Shown here piece by piece: positions 23,699 through 31,892 of a DNA stretch of 64,000 nt (the stretch's first letter is position 1; each line of letters begins with the position of its first letter). This DNA comes from Rheinheimera sp. MM224 (GTDB lineage: Bacteria > Pseudomonadota > Gammaproteobacteria > Enterobacterales > Alteromonadaceae). Both the position numbers and the translations under genes were made by a program. The stretch lies in the NCBI RefSeq assembly GCF_947090785.1, contig NZ_OX352320.1, positions 62,001-126,000 of the forward strand, written 5' to 3'. Under the pieces are notes generated by a model. It did not search any database. It saw only the letters and a list, made by a program, of their open reading frames with translations, and had not been told where the DNA came from.

Positions 23699-24430
23699 AT
23701 GAGCGCCATTTATTTAGGTATCAATATCGATCACGTCGCCACTTTACGTCAGGCCCGTGGCACTTATTACCCTGAACCTGTGCATGCTGCATTATTGGCT
23801 GAGCAATTTGGCGCTGATGGCATTACTGTGCATTTACGAGAAGACCGCCGTCATATTCAGGACCGTGATTTATTTGTATTGCGTCAAACCATAGCCACCC
23901 GTTTAAATTTCGAAATGGCTGTGACTGAAGAAATGTTAGGTATTGCCGCTCAGCTTAAACCTGAATTCTGTTGTTTAGTGCCGGAAAAACGTCAGGAACT
24001 GACCACAGAAGGTGGTTTGGAAGTGGCAGGCCAGTTCGATAAAATTCAGGATGCTGTAGTACGTTTGCAGCAAGACAATATTTTAGTGTCCTTGTTTATC
24101 GACGCCGATGAAAAACAAATAGCAGCGGCAGCCAAAGCTGGTGCGCCTTTTATTGAAATTCACACCGGCCAGTATGCGGAAGCGACCGATCCGAAAAAGC
24201 AAAAGGCAGAGCTTGAGCGTATCACTGAAGCTGCTGCTTATGCGGCTTCATTGGGCTTAACCGTCAATGCCGGTCATGGCCTGCATTACCATAACGTGCA
24301 GCCTATAGCCGCTATTTCTCAGATGTACGAGCTGAATATTGGTCATGCTATTGTGGCCCGCGCCATTTTCTCGGGTTTAGGCCCTGCAGTAGCTGAAATG
24401 AAACGCCTGATGGTCGAGGCGCGCCGTTAA
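23699..24430 (+). CDS. pdxJ: Pyridoxine 5'-phosphate synthase
   Basis: This 243-residue TIM-barrel enzyme condenses 1-deoxyxylulose 5-phosphate with 3-amino-2-oxopropyl phosphate to make pyridoxine phosphate. Typical segments are [40 protein letters not shown] and [11 protein letters not shown]. Its last base overlaps the acpS start. Confidence 0.97.
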
Positions 24431-24807
24431 TGGCCATTGTTGGTTTAGGCACCGACATTATTGAAATAGCGCGTATAGAGCAAAGCCTGACGCGCTCACC
24501 CCGTTTAGTACAACGGGTACTGACTGAATCTGAGCAGCAAATTTTAGCTGCTCATGGTCAGCCAGCCCGATATTTTGCCAAACGTTTTGCCGCTAAAGAA
24601 GCTGCAGCTAAAGCCCTTGGCACAGGCATAGGCCGTGGTATTTCGTTTCAACATTTTATTGTCAGCAACGACCCTTCAGGTCGCCCTCAACTTGAGCTCA
24701 CAGGTCCGGCTAAAGCATTAGCTGATTCAATGCAAGTGCGTTCAGTCTGGCTCTCCATCAGCGACGAGCAGGCGTATGCCTGTGCCACAGTCATTCTCGA
24801 ATCCTAA
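24430..24807 (+). CDS. acpS: Holo-acyl-carrier-protein synthase
   Basis: This 125-residue phosphopantetheinyl transferase activates acyl carrier protein. It has GLGTDIIEIARIE and FAKRFAAKEAAAKALGTG, including the magnesium-binding Asp and Glu. It is the last gene of the rpoE-to-acpS run. A short dispersed repeat follows within 6 bases of its stop codon. Confidence 0.96.
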   Translation: MAIVGLGTDIIEIARIEQSLTRSPRLVQRVLTESEQQILAAHGQPARYFAKRFAAKEAAAKALGTGIGRGISFQHFIVSNDPSGRPQLELTGPAKALADSMQVRSVWLSISDEQAYACATVILES

Positions 24808-24812
24808 CCTTT

Positions 24813-24839
24813 GCGGGCGGGGTAAACCCGCGCCCCTAC
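24813..24839 (-). repeat. Dispersed GTAGGGGCG...CCCCGCCCG repeat, copy 1
   Basis: On the minus strand this 27-base stretch begins GTAGGGGCGCGGGT and ends ACCCCGCCCGC, near-palindromic at its ends. Two further copies lie at 44361-44388 and 44431-44459. It occupies the gap after acpS and could act as a terminator-like hairpin. Confidence 0.7.
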
Positions 24840-24895
24840 CCATGACACATCCTATTAGGGTATAAATACTTCAACTCCAGCTGTAGGTGAAGTAA

Positions 24896-25684
24896 ATGCA
24901 AAAAGGTAGTTTGGTTTGTGTCGGCACTGGTATGACTTTAGGTTCTCATATCAGTCCTTTATCCCGCAGTTATATAGAACAAGCCGATGTGGTTTTTGTA
25001 TTAGTGGCTGATGGTACTACTGAGCTGTGGATCCAGGGAATGAATGCCGATGTGCGTAGTCTGCAGCCTTATTATTCTGAAGGCCAGTCCCGGATGATCA
25101 CCTATAAACAAATGGTGGCGGCACTGCTTGCCGAAGTGCGCTTGGGTAAAAAAGTCTGTGGTGCTTTTTATGGCCATCCCGGTGTGTTTGCCTGGGTACC
25201 ACATCAGGCTATTAAAGAAGCTATATCTGAAGGTTATCAGGCTCATATGGAGCCAGGCATTTCCGCCGAAGACTGTTTATATGCCGATTTAGGCTTAGAC
25301 CCCGGCACTTATGGTTGCCAGCATTATGAAGCCAGTGCTTTGATGTTTTACCAACGCACTATAGATACTGCGGCTTACTTAATTTTATGGCAACCAGGGG
25401 TCGCTGGCGATAAGTCGCTGGCGAAATTCAGCACAGGCAGTGCGTATCGTGAAGTTCTAGTCGAACTGTTAAGTCAATGGTACCCGCTGGATCATCAGGT
25501 CATTTTATACGAAGCCGTGACTTTACCTATCCAGCAACCTCGTATTGAACGCATTGCTTTGTCTGATTTACCTAAAGCGCAGATGGATTTAAAAACCACT
25601 TTAGTTATACCTCCAGCCACTGTCGCTAAAGCCAATCAGCTGATTTTAGATAAGTTAAAGGCTCTGGTGACTCAGGAAGATTAA
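24896..25684 (+). CDS. SonM-type peptide alpha-N-methyltransferase (split borosin pathway)
   Basis: This 262-residue tetrapyrrole-methylase-fold SAM enzyme probably methylates backbone amides of a peptide substrate. It begins GSLVCVGTGMTLGSHISPLSRSYIEQAD and has FYGHPGVF (91-98), MEPGISAEDCLYADLGLDPG (118-137) and the HYEASALMFY segment. Tyr60, Arg66, Tyr70 and Tyr92 have exactly the spacing of Tyr66, Arg72, Tyr76 and Tyr98, the catalytic set of the fungal borosin enzyme OphMA. It lacks a fused C-terminal substrate, as in the Shewanella SonM enzyme. A candidate precursor is encoded at 26351. Plain porphyrin methylases differ in these motifs. The GNAT gene starts one base after its stop. Substrate identity is inferred. 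Confidence 0.88.
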   Translation: MQKGSLVCVGTGMTLGSHISPLSRSYIEQADVVFVLVADGTTELWIQGMNADVRSLQPYYSEGQSRMITYKQMVAALLAEVRLGKKVCGAFYGHPGVFAWVPHQAIKEAISEGYQAHMEPGISAEDCLYADLGLDPGTYGCQHYEASALMFYQRTIDTAAYLILWQPGVAGDKSLAKFSTGSAYREVLVELLSQWYPLDHQVILYEAVTLPIQQPRIERIALSDLPKAQMDLKTTLVIPPATVAKANQLILDKLKALVTQED

Positions 25685-25685
25685 A

Positions 25686-26222
25686 ATGAATACGGATTGG
25701 CAACTTGCAGCAAAAGCCGAAAATTTTGTGATCACCACATCACGTTTGTTGATCCGGCCTTTAACACAACAGGACCTGCAGCTGTATTTGGATTTATATA
25801 CCAATACTGAGACTATGGTGTTTGTTGGAGAAACTCTGCAAGCAGAAAAGGCTAAAAACAGCTTTCAGATCGCTTTACGACTTAATGCAAAAACACCCTT
25901 TAAACGGTTATTTCTGACCATTGTTGAGCAAGGCCGGTGTGCAGGCTTGTGCGCTATCAATCAATGGAACAGTGAAACAGCACAGGTTGAGGTCGGTATT
26001 ATGTTATTGCGGCCCTGGCACGGCCAGGGTTATGCAGCGGAAGCCTTGGCAGCATTAATTCAGCGGGTGCAACAACAGTTTTACACTGCAGTGATCAAAG
26101 GTGATTTAGACCCCGAAAATAAAGCTGCAGTGCAGTTGGTAGTAAAAACTGGTTTTCAACCTGATTTAAACTGCAGCAGAACCTATTGGGTGAAACATAA
26201 TGATGCATTAGTGCCATTCTGA
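25686..26222 (+). CDS. GNAT-family N-acetyltransferase (RimJ/RimL-like)
   Basis: This 178-residue acetyltransferase has the RimJ/RimL start pattern ITTSRLLIRPLTQQDLQLYL, the acetyl-CoA loop RPWHGQGYAAEAL and the late segment DPENKAAVQLVVKTGFQ. It begins one base after the methyltransferase stop, so the two are very probably cotranscribed and translationally coupled. It could acetylate the modified peptide, confer self-protection, or be unrelated; the sequence does not decide. A 128-base gap separates it from the precursor gene. Confidence 0.85.
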   Translation: MNTDWQLAAKAENFVITTSRLLIRPLTQQDLQLYLDLYTNTETMVFVGETLQAEKAKNSFQIALRLNAKTPFKRLFLTIVEQGRCAGLCAINQWNSETAQVEVGIMLLRPWHGQGYAAEALAALIQRVQQQFYTAVIKGDLDPENKAAVQLVVKTGFQPDLNCSRTYWVKHNDALVPF

Positions 26223-26350
26223 TAAAAACTTAAATACAGAACTTATTATGTACGCTTGTGCTTTTAATTTTATCGTTTTAAAGTGGATTTGCGTGGGTAG
26301 TTCTGGCATCAGGCTTTAAGCGGTGCTTTGTTTGCAGTATTGGAGTCGTT

Positions 26351-26626
26351 ATGTCAAAAATTATCAGTCTGTTAGAAAAAATGGGCCAAAATGCTGAGTT
26401 TCGTTATGCCAACGCTGAGCAATTAGCATGTTTAATGGCGAACACTGACCCTGCGTTAATTGATGCGGTGATTGCAGGAGACCAAGCCGGGCTAGAACAA
26501 TTATTGGGAGCAAGAACTAATGTTGTTTGTGGTATTCATCCAGCAGACCAACCAGATGAAGAACCGCAGGATGAACCTGGAGATCAGCCTGAAAAAGAGG
26601 CTGGCTCAGTCTTGAAGGTCGGTTAG
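26351..26626 (+). CDS. Candidate split-borosin precursor peptide
   Basis: This 91-residue protein fits the layout of SonA-like borosin precursors. Residues 1-54 form a helical leader (ISLLEKMGQNAEFRYANAEQ, then LIDAVIAGDQAGLEQLLG) resembling the borosin-binding domain. A short core-like stretch follows, TNVVCGIHPA (56-65), then an acidic proline-rich tail (66-84; repeated DEPQDEPGDQP-type sequence) and a small end GSVLKVG. GGAG lies 5 bases before the ATG. The gene lies downstream of the methyltransferase and GNAT genes, with its own 128-base upstream region. Which residues are methylated, and where the peptide is cut, cannot be read from the sequence; VVCGI is my best guess. Confidence 0.8.
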   Translation: MSKIISLLEKMGQNAEFRYANAEQLACLMANTDPALIDAVIAGDQAGLEQLLGARTNVVCGIHPADQPDEEPQDEPGDQPEKEAGSVLKVG

Positions 26627-26628
26627 TT

Positions 26629-28377
26629 TTGCTATCAATTTTTGGATATAAATTACGATACAGGCGGCAGGTATTTTGGCTGCCTATATTTCTATGTACT
26701 TTAATCTTTCCTGTTTATCTTCAGGCATCAGTAGAGCAGTTAACTTACCTTGATAAGATTAAAAGCTCCAAATTTGATGAGTTCAGCAAAGGGGTTGATG
26801 TTTTAGCAAACACCAATACGAAATTATCACCCTTTGAAACTGATTACCTTCAACTGCTAAAGGCATATAAGTTAAGTTATCTTGGCGATATTGATAAGGC
26901 CCTATTGATATTACAGCCATTAACTTCTAACCCGGATATGGCAATCTCTTTTCGTGCGAAAGCCTTGTCAATCAATAGTCTTATCATTGTCAGACGGTAT
27001 CTGGACGCATTCTTATATTTTGAGACGCTAATCAATCAACTGCCCCAGGTTAACCAGCCTATAGCCAGAGAGCAAGGTTTAAGAGTTATAGCGATGATGT
27101 ATACCATGATCGAGCGTTATGACTTATCTGTTTCCTATCTGGACCAACTGATAGCGGAAAACCCAAGTGAAAATTCTGTCTGTGCGGCCTATCAGTTGCG
27201 CCTTGAAGCTTGGTTTTCGAGTAATCAGATAGAGTTGTTTAAGCGTGATGTTGACTCTGGTGTTCAATACTGTGAAGAACATAATGAGCCGCTTTGGAGA
27301 CAACTTATTATAGTTACTAAGGCGAAATTATTATTTGAAGAAGGGTTTTACGAGCAAAGTAAGCTTCTTTTACTAAAAGAATATACTAGGGCTGCAGATA
27401 CTAAATATTTGCGCTTAATAACAGAATTCAATTATGTGCTAGCTGAAAACCTTTTAATGTTGGGTGATTTAGATGAGGCGAAACGATATGCAAATATGGT
27501 TGTCGCTGAGGCAGAGTCTTTTAAAAACTACTTTCCAATAGTTCACTCCTTTAAGGTTTTGTATCGCGCCGCCAAACAAGAAAAAAACTACCAGCAAGCG
27601 CTGGATTATCACGAACAATACATGGCAGCTTTTACCGCTTATATGGATGATAAGTCGGCGCAGCAGATGGCGTACCATACAGCACATTCGGAAATTCTGG
27701 CACAAAACCAAAAAATTGCCTTGCTGGATAAAGACAATCAGTTACTGCAGTACGAGCAGACTTCACTTAAACATCAGGCTGCTTTTAACAAGCTGTTGAT
27801 TATTGCTTTGGCTGTGTTGGTATTCGGTCTTGCAGTGATGGCCTATCGCAGTTTTGTCGCCCGTCAGCGTTTTAAAGCTTTGGCTGAATATGATGATTTA
27901 ACCGCCATCAGCAACAGGTATCACTTTTCGACCTCAGCCAAAGGAGCTTTGGCTTTATGTGAAAAAGGTCAATTACCTGCCGCCCTTATCGTGTTTGATC
28001 TGGACCATTTTAAACAAATTAATGATCAGTATGGCCATGCGGCAGGCGACTGGGCTTTACGCCAAACTGTGGATACCTGTCGTAACTTTATGCGTAATAA
28101 CGATGTGTTTGGCCGTATTGGTGGTGAAGAGTTTGCGATCTTATTGCCGGGCTGCCAGAGTGACAAGGCGCATTTACTGGCGGACATTTGCCGGGATGCC
28201 ATCAGCAATATTGATACTGCAGCTTCGGGTTACGAATTTAAATTAAGTGCCAGTTTTGGTGTCACTTCAGCAGAAATTTCCGGTTACCATTTAACTAAAC
28301 TAATTGAAGATGCAGATACAGCCATGTACCAGGCCAAACAACTAGGGCGGAACAAAGTACACTTCTTTCAAGGCTAA
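26629..28377 (+). CDS. Membrane-anchored diguanylate cyclase with TPR-like sensor
   Basis: This 582-residue protein has an N-terminal hydrophobic segment (about residues 15-33), a periplasmic helical-repeat region (about 35-340), a membrane helix at about 387-411 and a C-terminal GGDEF domain. The active site is GGEEF (498-502), the substrate segment FDLDHFKQINDQYGH is intact, and RNND (489-492) is a correctly placed product-inhibition site. It should make cyclic di-GMP. The only plausible start is a TTG at 26629, 2 bases after the precursor stop, suggesting coupled translation. A strong hairpin follows its stop. What it senses is unknown; its link to the peptide locus is positional only. Confidence 0.87.
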   Translation: MLSIFGYKLRYRRQVFWLPIFLCTLIFPVYLQASVEQLTYLDKIKSSKFDEFSKGVDVLANTNTKLSPFETDYLQLLKAYKLSYLGDIDKALLILQPLTSNPDMAISFRAKALSINSLIIVRRYLDAFLYFETLINQLPQVNQPIAREQGLRVIAMMYTMIERYDLSVSYLDQLIAENPSENSVCAAYQLRLEAWFSSNQIELFKRDVDSGVQYCEEHNEPLWRQLIIVTKAKLLFEEGFYEQSKLLLLKEYTRAADTKYLRLITEFNYVLAENLLMLGDLDEAKRYANMVVAEAESFKNYFPIVHSFKVLYRAAKQEKNYQQALDYHEQYMAAFTAYMDDKSAQQMAYHTAHSEILAQNQKIALLDKDNQLLQYEQTSLKHQAAFNKLLIIALAVLVFGLAVMAYRSFVARQRFKALAEYDDLTAISNRYHFSTSAKGALALCEKGQLPAALIVFDLDHFKQINDQYGHAAGDWALRQTVDTCRNFMRNNDVFGRIGGEEFAILLPGCQSDKAHLLADICRDAISNIDTAASGYEFKLSASFGVTSAEISGYHLTKLIEDADTAMYQAKQLGRNKVHFFQG

Positions 28378-28408
28378 TCTGAGTTTGCACTATTGAATTT
28401 TTGAGTTA

Positions 28409-28446
28409 CTCCGATGTCAGAAACGGCAGTCTGACATCGGAGTTTT
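28409..28446 (+). terminator. Intrinsic terminator after the diguanylate cyclase gene
   Basis: A 13-base perfect stem, CTCCGATGTCAGA (28409-28421) with TCTGACATCGGAG (28430-28442), has an 8-base loop and is followed by TTTT. It would end the peptide-locus transcript. Its right arm also supplies GGAG in front of the next candidate start at 28450. Confidence 0.8.
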
Positions 28447-28449
28447 GCT

Positions 28450-29121
28450 TTGAAGATATGGATATTTTCTGTTGTAGTTCATCTGTTATTGCTGTGGGCT
28501 CTGTCTTTGATCATTATTCCTCCGGCGGAGAAACCCTCAGCATCAGCTGTGATTCAAAGTTATAGTTACACGCCAATCCGTGTGAAGTCAGTGCCTGCTG
28601 TTATTGCTAAGCCGCAGCCAGTCACTGCAAGCAAACCGCCTGAGTCTAAACTTCCAGCTAAAAAACGACCCTCTAAAAAAGCCAGAGCTTCTGAAGCTAC
28701 TGCTGCTGTTAGTAGCGCTGCCGGAACAACCTCAGAGGCGAAGATCAATTCAGCGGTTGGGATGGTTGAAACAAAACCATCCAGGGCTTCGGGTTCTCTA
28801 TCCCTGGCGCAACGTGCACTAGCTGCAGCGTCTGCTGTAGCCTCTGAACCTATAGCGGATCGGCAGCGACAACGTGAAGTCGTCTTGAGGTCAGGCACGC
28901 CAGCAGATAGTGAGCTTGCTCCTGCAATGCTTAAACAAGTAAAAACTTATGCAGATGGCTCTGAACTGGTCAAAGGTGTTCATGGCTGCTGGAAGGTTCC
29001 GCCAACAGAATCACGCAAGGGCGCTACCTGGCTGATGACCAGCACACCCTGTGAAACCGATAGCACAGTAGAACAAATCAACGCTATTTTGCAGAAGCGT
29101 CGTACCTATGGCAGTGATTAA
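28450..29121 (+). CDS. TonB/TolA-like N-terminal anchor protein of unknown function
   Basis: I do not recognise the family of this 223-residue protein. A hydrophobic N-terminal helix (about residues 4-24) holds a Ser-x3-His pair (SVVVH), the motif by which TonB and TolA contact their proton-channel partners. A long Ala/Lys/Pro/Ser-rich linker (25-150) follows, then a small C-terminal part with two cysteines (HGCWKVPP and STPCETD). It is probably periplasmic with an inner membrane anchor. The start appears to be TTG at 28450, 9 bases after GGAG. It overlaps the barA 3' end by 4 bases, tail to tail. Confidence 0.6.
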   Translation: MKIWIFSVVVHLLLLWALSLIIIPPAEKPSASAVIQSYSYTPIRVKSVPAVIAKPQPVTASKPPESKLPAKKRPSKKARASEATAAVSSAAGTTSEAKINSAVGMVETKPSRASGSLSLAQRALAAASAVASEPIADRQRQREVVLRSGTPADSELAPAMLKQVKTYADGSELVKGVHGCWKVPPTESRKGATWLMTSTPCETDSTVEQINAILQKRRTYGSD

Positions 29122-31892
29122 CCTGAAACTTTAGTTGGTGCGGGCTCTGTAACCAGCGGTGGCCAGTTTTTGGCATCCTGTAATAAGGATTGGATCCTGT
29201 CCTGCAGTTCAAATAATTCAGGCTCCAGTTGTTCGGTTTGTTTACCTTTTTTCAGCTCAGTTTCAATCAACTCTGTCAGTTGTTTTAATACTGGCAGACC
29301 TGTATAGCAGCTGGCGCCGTGCAATTTATGGATATGCTGTAGCAGTTGTTCAGCATCCTGTTGTTGCATCGCCTGCTGAATAAGCATCAAGCTATCAGGC
29401 AATGACTGTACCAGCATCCATAACATTTCTTTGGCTAAATCCAGTTTACCGCCGGCTCTTTGCAATGCCAGAGTCCAGTCCAGCTGTTTGCTTTGCGGCA
29501 ATTGGTTTTCGCTGGTTGAGGCCGCTAATGCTTGTTGAAAATCCGGGCAACATTCCCGCAAGGTGTAGTGCAGCAGTTTTTCATCCAGAGGTTTAGTTAA
29601 AAACTCACAAAAGCCTAAAGCTAACAGCCTGTCCCTTTCACCATCCAATGCGTGAGCTGTCACCGCAATAATGGGAGTCGCTTCGTTTAGCGAACTTTGC
29701 TGAATACGCTGGCAAGCCTGAATACCGTCCATCACCGGCATATTAATATCCATAAAAATCAGATCGTAATGCTGTTGGTTGGCTTTTTGCCATGCTTCGG
29801 CGCCATTACGGGCTGAATCGACCTGTTCCACCATTTCAGACAGCAGGGTATTAATCAGTTTTAAATTCGCTTCGTTATCATCCACCGACAACACCCGCAA
29901 GCGGGCTTTAGGTTTATCCTGCAGCGGATTTTGCTCAGGGAAATCTAAATAAGGCTGTGCCAGAGTCATTGCCAGTTTGCGGTAATGTGCTGGTTTAGAT
30001 AACACAGCTTTGGCACCTGAGGCCTGCAGCACTTCACGTAAATTCGGTGACAGGGTGTTGACCAGTAAATACAACTGCTCGCTGTGCAGTTGCAACTGCT
30101 GCAGTAATTCAATCACCTGATTGACCTGATTCAGTGAAATAGAGCGGCCAATTAACGCCATATCAATTTGTGGCTGCAACGCCAGAGTTTGGCTCAGCTG
30201 GCTCATATTGCTGCAACTGATGATATTCAGTCCCCACTGGTCCAACTGGGCTAGCATGGCTTCGCGGGAATACTGCTGAGGTTCAAAATACAAAATAGTT
30301 TTTTGCTTCAGCTCCGCCAGCGGCAAAGGTTCAGCTATGGATAAATGGTGGCGTTTGCACATCAGCGTAAACCAGAAGGTTGAGCCTTCACCTGCTTTAC
30401 TATCAAAGCCAATTTTGCCACCCATAGCAGTGACCAGACGCTGTGAAATGACTAAACCTAAACCTGTGCCGCCATAACGCCGGCCAATGCTGTTGTCGGC
30501 CTGGGCAAAACCACCAAACAAGCTTTTTTGCTGATCTTCTGTAATACCAATACCTGTATCTTGCACTGAAAAACGCAGTTGCCATTGCTCGTCCGGCATA
30601 GGGCGGCAACTAACACGTATCACTACACTGCCTTGTTCGGTGAATTTAATCGCATTACCGGCAATGTTGGTCAGAATTTGATTAATCCGCATTGGGTCTG
30701 CTATTAAATCGTCAGGACAGCTATTCTCAACCAGTAACACCAATTCCAGCTGTTTATCAAAGGCATTAGAGGCTAATAGCTCCACCGAATCATTGAGCAA
30801 GTCGCGTAATGAAAAAGGCTCGGGGTTAATCGGCATCCGGCCTTCTTCCAGTTTGGCGTAATCCAACACGTCGTTGACCAGGCTTAATAAGCTATTCGCT
30901 GATTTCTGAATAGTAGCTAAATAATCCTGCTGGTTATGGGTCAGGTTGGTTTTCAGTAATTGCCGGGCAAAACCAATAACGGCGTTGAGCGGTGTGCGTA
31001 ATTCATGACTCATTTTGGCAAGGAAGTCAGATTTACTGCGGTTATCTTCCATCGCCTTTTTACGGGACAGGTCCAGCTCAATATTTTGCATTTCCAGCTG
31101 TTCCATACTTTGTTGTAAGTCGCTGGTCGCCTGTTCAATGCTTTGCTGCATTTCTTCGTCATGGGTTTTTAGTGCTGTTGCCAGCGCATTAATACCAGTG
31201 CGTAGCTGTTCCAGTTCACCGAGAAAAGGTTGTTGCAATTGACTTTGATACTGGCCTTCACGTAGCTGTCCAATCACATCTCCCATTTGCTGCAAAGGAC
31301 TGCTGACCTTCTTAATCAGGCGCAAACTGAAATACACACAGGCGGCAAGCCCCAATAGAATAATCATCAGGCTGCTGAGCAACGAGGTTTGCTGTGCCAG
31401 CATCACTTTATCTTTGGCCACTTGTACTGAGATATAACCCAAAGGCTGATCGGCCGGGTCTGTGCTGAAATCGGCTTGTTCCGGTAAAATAGGGGTGCGG
31501 ATCACAAGCCAGTTGCCAAGGTCTGTGATGGTACTTTGCTGTGGAATAGCGCTGTCGGGCGCGTACTTCAGCATGGCAAAGTCTTTGTGATAGTTGGTGG
31601 TCACAAAGAGCTCGTGATCGGCATTAAAAATAGCGATACTTTTGACCAAAGCTGAATTTTTTCTGTGACTGACATCCAGCAAACGTTTGACGTCTTGCCG
31701 GCTGTTATGTAATAACGCATGTTCGCTGGCTATAGCTAAAGGGACGGCAATGTTTTCGGCCTGTTCTTCCAGATACTGGGCCAAATCATGATAGCGGGCA
31801 TAGCTAAAATAACCCCCAAGGCATAAACTGACCAACAAGGTCGGCACCAGGGTGGTCAATAAGACCCAATCTCTTAAACCAATTTTCGTCAT
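29118..31892 (-). CDS. barA: BarA-type hybrid sensor histidine kinase
   Basis: This 924-residue inner membrane kinase probably controls the UvrY/GacA response regulator and, through it, CsrA-binding small RNAs. Domains in order: membrane helix (about 10-28), periplasmic sensor, second helix (about 172-192), HAMP, a coiled-coil linker, HisKA with MSHELRTPLNAVIGF (His near 295), HATPase with NAIKFT and GTGLGLVIS, a degenerate receiver-like region, a receiver with DINMPVMDG (near 715) and an Hpt domain with HIHKLHGASC (near 855). It is divergent from rlmD, the E. coli arrangement, which supports the assignment over other hybrid kinases. Confidence 0.9.
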   Translation of the reverse strand: MTKIGLRDWVLLTTLVPTLLVSLCLGGYFSYARYHDLAQYLEEQAENIAVPLAIASEHALLHNSRQDVKRLLDVSHRKNSALVKSIAIFNADHELFVTTNYHKDFAMLKYAPDSAIPQQSTITDLGNWLVIRTPILPEQADFSTDPADQPLGYISVQVAKDKVMLAQQTSLLSSLMIILLGLAACVYFSLRLIKKVSSPLQQMGDVIGQLREGQYQSQLQQPFLGELEQLRTGINALATALKTHDEEMQQSIEQATSDLQQSMEQLEMQNIELDLSRKKAMEDNRSKSDFLAKMSHELRTPLNAVIGFARQLLKTNLTHNQQDYLATIQKSANSLLSLVNDVLDYAKLEEGRMPINPEPFSLRDLLNDSVELLASNAFDKQLELVLLVENSCPDDLIADPMRINQILTNIAGNAIKFTEQGSVVIRVSCRPMPDEQWQLRFSVQDTGIGITEDQQKSLFGGFAQADNSIGRRYGGTGLGLVISQRLVTAMGGKIGFDSKAGEGSTFWFTLMCKRHHLSIAEPLPLAELKQKTILYFEPQQYSREAMLAQLDQWGLNIISCSNMSQLSQTLALQPQIDMALIGRSISLNQVNQVIELLQQLQLHSEQLYLLVNTLSPNLREVLQASGAKAVLSKPAHYRKLAMTLAQPYLDFPEQNPLQDKPKARLRVLSVDDNEANLKLINTLLSEMVEQVDSARNGAEAWQKANQQHYDLIFMDINMPVMDGIQACQRIQQSSLNEATPIIAVTAHALDGERDRLLALGFCEFLTKPLDEKLLHYTLRECCPDFQQALAASTSENQLPQSKQLDWTLALQRAGGKLDLAKEMLWMLVQSLPDSLMLIQQAMQQQDAEQLLQHIHKLHGASCYTGLPVLKQLTELIETELKKGKQTEQLEPELFELQDRIQSLLQDAKNWPPLVTEPAPTKVSG

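Follow-up and report, generated by a model that had tools for sequence, protein, structure and literature searches.

A split borosin locus of Rheinheimera sp. MM224 with an adjacent membrane diguanylate cyclase and a possible role in peptide signalling

A 64,000-nucleotide stretch of the genome of Rheinheimera sp. MM224 (contig NZ_OX352320.1, positions 62,001 to 126,000; hereafter the window, whose own numbering is used below) holds, with high confidence, a type IV (split) borosin locus, in which a SonM-type peptide methyltransferase and its precursor are encoded as separate proteins. Four genes follow each other on the + strand in the order methyltransferase, GNAT, precursor and membrane diguanylate cyclase, and they probably constitute one operon. 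As the gene placed right after that of the peptide encodes a second-messenger sensor, a role of the modified peptide as a signal is suggested. The explanation that best fits the data, which we consider somewhat probable, is a split borosin operon whose peptide or precursor drives the adjacent cyclase sensor; that the locus works as a peptide-to-cyclic-di-GMP signalling module is, in our estimation, an evenly balanced proposition.

The methyltransferase and its precursor

A previous sequence-only reading of this DNA had proposed two open reading frames as a borosin pair, and both were present in the open reading frame list on the + strand, at 24896-25684 (262 aa) and 26351-26626 (91 aa). The first encodes a SonM-type borosin peptide alpha-N-methyltransferase. 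The residues Tyr60, Arg66, Tyr70 and Tyr92 that had been cited for it, with spacings of 6, 4 and 22, were counted on the translation (codons 25073-25075, 25091-25093, 25103-25105 and 25169-25171, + strand), where the motifs cited, including FYGHPGVF, were also found. Alignment with SonM pairs its catalytic residues Y58, Y71, Y93 and R67, as named in PMC8429565, with Y60, Y70, Y92 and R66 of the window enzyme, and these four columns were invariant in the 71 aligned sequences (window enzyme included), which correspond to the enzyme genes clustered from 81 loci, that is, 80 related loci and the window.

When the enzyme was searched against the Protein Data Bank (PDB) at E <= 0.01, 25 sequences were recovered, all of them SonM (1.4e-83), dbOphMA (1.4e-50), OphMA (1.7e-47) or MroMA (1e-44), with some of the SonM chains deposited as 'TP-methylase family protein'. 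Judged by sequence, the similarity to solved borosin methyltransferases is far beyond chance. Pfam assigned the enzyme to the broad superfamily model PF00590 (TP_methylase) alone and NCBIfam gave matches far below the cut-off; a best match to porphyrin methylases, which would have spoken against a borosin enzyme, did not arise, as no solved porphyrin methylase appeared at E 0.01. The host genome (4.64 Mb, single contig) contains one such methyltransferase, whose closest named relatives are from Rheinheimera, with 92-96% identity over the enzyme.

As a single-sequence query, the 91-aa precursor (26351-26626) had no match that passed the threshold in Pfam, NCBIfam or PDB, and a profile built from 45 precursors matched SonA with E values of 3e-5 to 1e-4, the best stretch being positions 1-57. 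The leader (residues 1-53; 26351-26509) is predicted to be a borosin binding domain of five helices (residues 3-13, 15-19, 22-28, 34-42 and 45-52 in the fold model). The helical leader that had been proposed is thus supported both by a five-helix prediction like that of SonA and by the profile match. The leader is followed by a putative core with Cys60 (residues 57-66; 26519-26548) and by an acidic tail rich in Pro, Asp and Glu (residues 67-91; 26549-26623). This combination had been regarded as uncommon, but it turned out to be the family norm, with Cys in the core columns of 93/104 precursors. A precursor homologue was present at 78 of the 80 related loci. A stand-alone SonM-like enzyme with a separate SonA-like precursor is what emerges from the sequences, the profile, the fold model and the conserved pairing of the genes.

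The resemblance to the SonM/SonA pair of Shewanella oneidensis (PMC8429565) extends to a stand-alone enzyme (262-263 aa) that shares its catalytic residues and to a separate precursor with a five-helix leader. The window precursor is longer (91 vs. 71 aa), with Cys in its core and a long tail of acidic character; its leader-core spacing deviates by a few residues from that of SonA, and a GNAT gene separates it from the enzyme gene. The fungal OphMA and dbOphMA are members of this family of methyltransferases as well (E 1e-47 to 1e-50), but there enzyme and core are fused in one protein, whereas they are separate in the window.

Some variation of the precursors was also recorded. Some close Rheinheimera relatives (L003, L007, L008 and L009) carry a second precursor of 78 aa between acpS and the methyltransferase gene, at a place where the window has just about 90 bp. 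The precursors of L048 and L057 are 143 aa long, with very long Lys-rich tails instead of the usual acidic one. In L157 (4479-4910), the Cys-containing core motif is present in around four copies; its genome (G552) has the enzyme, and no sensor-domain match was detected in it at E 1e-20.

The sensor cyclase and its linkage to the methyltransferase

The open reading frame that follows the precursor (26629-28377, + strand) encodes a membrane diguanylate cyclase sensor of 582 aa, with a TTG start codon, chosen mechanically, 2 nt past the precursor stop. Pfam identified a GGDEF domain (PF00990, E 1.1e-41) and weak TPR matches, and a simple hydropathy scan placed an N-terminal hydrophobic segment before the TPR region and a transmembrane segment at residues 382-412, approximately, before the GGDEF domain. 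Most members of its cluster have a similar layout, in which a hydrophobic segment at the N-terminus, a TPR region of about 350 residues and a transmembrane segment around 380-410 follow each other. The active-site motif GGEEF (28120-28134) and the RxxD motif of product inhibition are present in the window protein, and they are kept in 77/80 and 71/80 members of the cluster, respectively. With a GGDEF domain, a GG(D/E)EF motif and RxxD, the protein has in its sequence the features of a diguanylate cyclase. The host genome contains this single protein among 14 candidates scored with the sensor profile.

The TPR sensor domain (residues 29-320, approximately; 26713-27588) is predicted to form a periplasmic superhelix. 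Two cysteines within it, Cys185 (27181-27183) and Cys215 (27271-27273), were invariant across 32 aligned sequences and more likely represent a structural disulfide. A thiol link between these residues and the core Cys was set aside, because both sensor cysteines are kept in L079, although the precursor there is devoid of a core Cys, and in L060, although it is missing from one of the two precursors. Nor was there support for coevolution of core and sensor as the main signal.

The linkage between sensor and enzyme was analysed on 131 methyltransferase genes, taken from the window and from loci L002-L142, with L100 and L101 left out. A sensor-domain protein was encoded downstream, on the same strand and within 6 kb, in 129 of them (104 GGDEF proteins, 21 histidine kinases and 4 partial ones), the other two being L037, where the contig ends, and L118. 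The cyclase had been missed by the gene calls in nine loci, seven of which were recovered downstream by tblastn, with L063 being partial and L037 at the contig end. All of the 20 lower-identity Shewanella loci that were fetched had a sensor match beside the enzyme, including one cut by the contig end (L130), one split over two frames (L135) and one without a visible GG(D/E)EF (L140). As the loci that hold the 131 genes are related to each other and include hand-picked regions, they do not form an independent sample, and samples of whole genomes are less biased.

With one genome per genus of the class, the enzyme was detected in 4/274 (E 1e-20) and the sensor domain in 1/274 (E 1e-30), which marks the latter as rare. 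Co-occurrence was then scored in three samples, with Fisher p-values that are indicative only, as genomes within a sample are not independent: 1e-28 for the 196 genomes of the own family (both 62, enzyme only 16, sensor only 6), 3.5e-9 for 60 Shewanella genomes (both 51, enzyme only 1, sensor only 0) and 3e-31 for 119 genomes of the family to which the genome of L041 belongs (both 47, enzyme only 2, sensor only 0). The Shewanella exception (G527) has a partial sensor at the contig end (L130). Among the 96 enzyme matches of the own family, 72 had a strong sensor match within 8 kb, a proportion that varied with enzyme identity (41/41 at >=60%, 25/26 at 52-60%, 6/11 at 47-52% and 0/18 below 47%). 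The remaining 24 matches, all of which were fetched, comprised 21 with a TPR-kinase, two (L099) with a weaker TPR-GGDEF match and one (L118) with none.

A universal rule is contradicted by L118, L157, L158 and the three most distant enzymes, and by the existence of sensor loci without a precursor. Sensor-domain genes without a recognisable precursor, some of them in tandem, were observed in L082, L084 and L087-L095.

Exchanged outputs, fusions and conserved neighbours

In loci with more distant enzymes, the position of the sensor is occupied by a protein of 929-1258 aa, and the sensor profile matched the TPR region of 19 such proteins (E 1e-11 to 5e-30). The six of these proteins that were tested by Pfam scan were all TPR hybrid histidine kinases, and in one case a receiver-GGDEF protein was located after such a kinase. 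A tree of 129 enzymes, rooted at the midpoint, separates a clade of the 21 kinase-linked enzymes (support 0.925) from a clade of the remaining 108 (0.982).

Fused forms were also found. In 11 loci (L144-L154) from the family of L041's genome, TPR sensor, transmembrane segment, GGDEF and methyltransferase are joined in single proteins of 833-980 aa, each adjoined by a separate precursor gene, which in L154 is overlapped by the fusion under the automatic start. GG(D/E)EF is intact in 11/11 and RxxD was not at the tested position. A twelfth fusion (L156) is cut by the contig start. In other loci (L011-L013, L026, L036, L039, L040, L096 and L098), more than one precursor-sensor pair surrounds a single enzyme gene, and L083, L085 and L086 have GNAT-precursor-sensor sets without an enzyme nearby.

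Borosin types are summarised in PMC11285071 and PMC11395268, and a GGDEF domain is among the architectures named in the Figure 1 legend of the latter, for which reason its presence is not claimed here as new. That architecture probably corresponds to the fusions of L144-L154, in contrast to the window, where the cyclase is a separate protein. In L133, whose enzyme is around 99% identical to SonM and whose precursor is closely similar to SonA, the gene after the precursor encodes a 594-aa protein with a sensor match and GGEEF; GGDEF has no occurrences in the main text of PMC8429565, and the passages of that article considered here do not discuss a cyclase.

The fold of the sensor domain was compared with known TPR proteins. 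Rap and NprR, peptide-pheromone receptors of the RRNPP class, occupied the top rows of the VIA comparison, tied with other TPR proteins and at 9-13% identity, and LGN was ranked first by Foldseek. Rap and NprR are cytoplasmic, belong to Gram-positive bacteria or their phages and respond to unmodified peptides, whereas the TPR domain of the window protein is fused to GGDEF and lies, according to the simple hydropathy scan, between the N-terminal hydrophobic segment and the transmembrane segment, not in the cytoplasm. As the domain is predicted to be periplasmic, the window sensor is not counted as an RRNPP member.

The range covered by the sequence-only reading (24896-26626) includes a gene that it did not mention and ends just short of the cyclase gene. 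The former encodes a GNAT-family N-acetyltransferase of 178 aa (25686-26222, + strand), a conserved member of the cassette according to Pfam and neighbourhood clustering, found within 2.5 kb of 71/104 GGDEF-linked vs. 0/21 kinase-linked methyltransferase genes. Clustering of the 80 loci and the window keeps enzyme, precursor and cyclase together, mostly with GNAT too, despite differing flanks. Directly 3' of the cyclase gene, a terminator-like hairpin of 14 bp (28408-28443, + strand; consensus match) probably marks the end of the transcription unit. Only this strong hairpin is reported, because promoter-like and terminator-like sites were no more numerous than in shuffled sequence (three terminator-like sites vs. 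a shuffle mean of 4.3, the other two having stems of just 5 pairs). An Rfam scan of 24000-29500 gave nothing at gathering scores. Past the hairpin, 28450-29121 encodes a Pro/Ala-rich protein of 223 aa without significant match in Pfam or NCBIfam, whose cluster comprises 11 loci, the closest Rheinheimera ones.

Genes for eukaryotic-type aspartyl proteases (Pfam Asp) are neighbours in 19/81 cassettes, 15 of the 19 from Shewanella, with the pepsin-like gene located upstream of GNAT and methyltransferase (L077, 3566-5296, and 18 other loci). Shewasin D, a bacterial pepsin homologue (PMC4814920), is a candidate relative of this protease. Trimming of the precursors by this protease is speculation; the gene is absent from the window cassette, and a search of the host genome for a leader protease with the Shewanella aspartyl protease as query gave no match, which shows little, as it was run without a positive control.

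Proposed mechanism, its rivals and their meaning

By analogy with SonM/SonA, the SonM-like enzyme would bind the helical leader of the precursor and methylate backbone amides of the hydrophobic core around Cys60 in the cytoplasm. After putative cleavage and export, the processed peptide, or the precursor itself, may serve the sensor encoded downstream as ligand or partner, acting at the periplasmic TPR domain and so altering cyclic-di-GMP synthesis by the cytoplasmic GGDEF domain. A broader proposal, which falls short of an even chance and is put forward tentatively, is that gammaproteobacterial split borosins are peptide signals, in which a TPR receptor of the periplasm, dedicated to an N-methylated peptide or its precursor, would detect it and act through interchangeable outputs, cyclic-di-GMP synthesis or a histidine kinase.

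The strongest rival is regulation of the pathway by the cyclase. The borosin pair would still be genuine in that case, but with the direction of control reversed, the cyclase sensing an unrelated periplasmic cue and controlling peptide production through cyclic-di-GMP or physical coupling. The fusions, which attach the methyltransferase to the output end of the cyclase and could couple the enzyme to the state of GGDEF, fit this idea, as do the covariation of the sensor domain with the leader rather than with the core and the exchange of the output for a histidine kinase in a distant clade, as a regulator would show. We nevertheless consider it unlikely, since enzyme and cyclase are separate proteins in the window and several precursor-sensor pairs per enzyme resemble paired peptides and sensors more than the regulation of one product.

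Less probable still, and clearly so, is an ordinary secreted metabolite, either bioactive or metal- or redox-active through its conserved Cys, with the cyclase as a co-expressed neighbour with a separate role. The conservation of the Cys core together with the acidic tail and the multi-core precursor of L157, of a kind seen among other peptide natural products, are in line with it, but an incidental neighbour would not be linked so strictly (129/131 and the three co-occurrence tables) and sensor, cyclase and methyltransferase also occur fused. Finally, it is very improbable that the enzyme is some other protein with the tetrapyrrole methylase fold, with the 91-aa protein not being its substrate: the broad Pfam assignment and the distant NCBIfam matches would allow it, but the sole solved matches at E <= 0.01 are borosin enzymes, the catalytic positions show no variation, and the precursor is both linked and SonA-like.

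According to the 2021 SonM article (PMC8429565), the end product had not yet been assigned for any type IV pathway. The literature searched gave no statement that borosins act in signalling; it did not extend to the main classification papers, so that an earlier description of the sensor is possible. The dedicated sensor found beside nearly every such precursor examined offers a concrete and testable role, with cyclic-di-GMP as readout, and together with the swapped outputs and the fusion to the enzyme it makes the function of bacterial borosins directly accessible to experiment. If the signalling explanation is true, bacterial borosins would here have a biological role proposed for the first time, as far as the literature searched shows, and the sensor would provide a receptor-based assay for finding their mature products. 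The module, which is shared by close relatives of Shewanella oneidensis, an organism amenable to laboratory work, would then add a class of modified peptide signal that is new for Gram-negative bacteria and would be a counterpart there, using a modified peptide, of the Rap/NprR pheromone systems.
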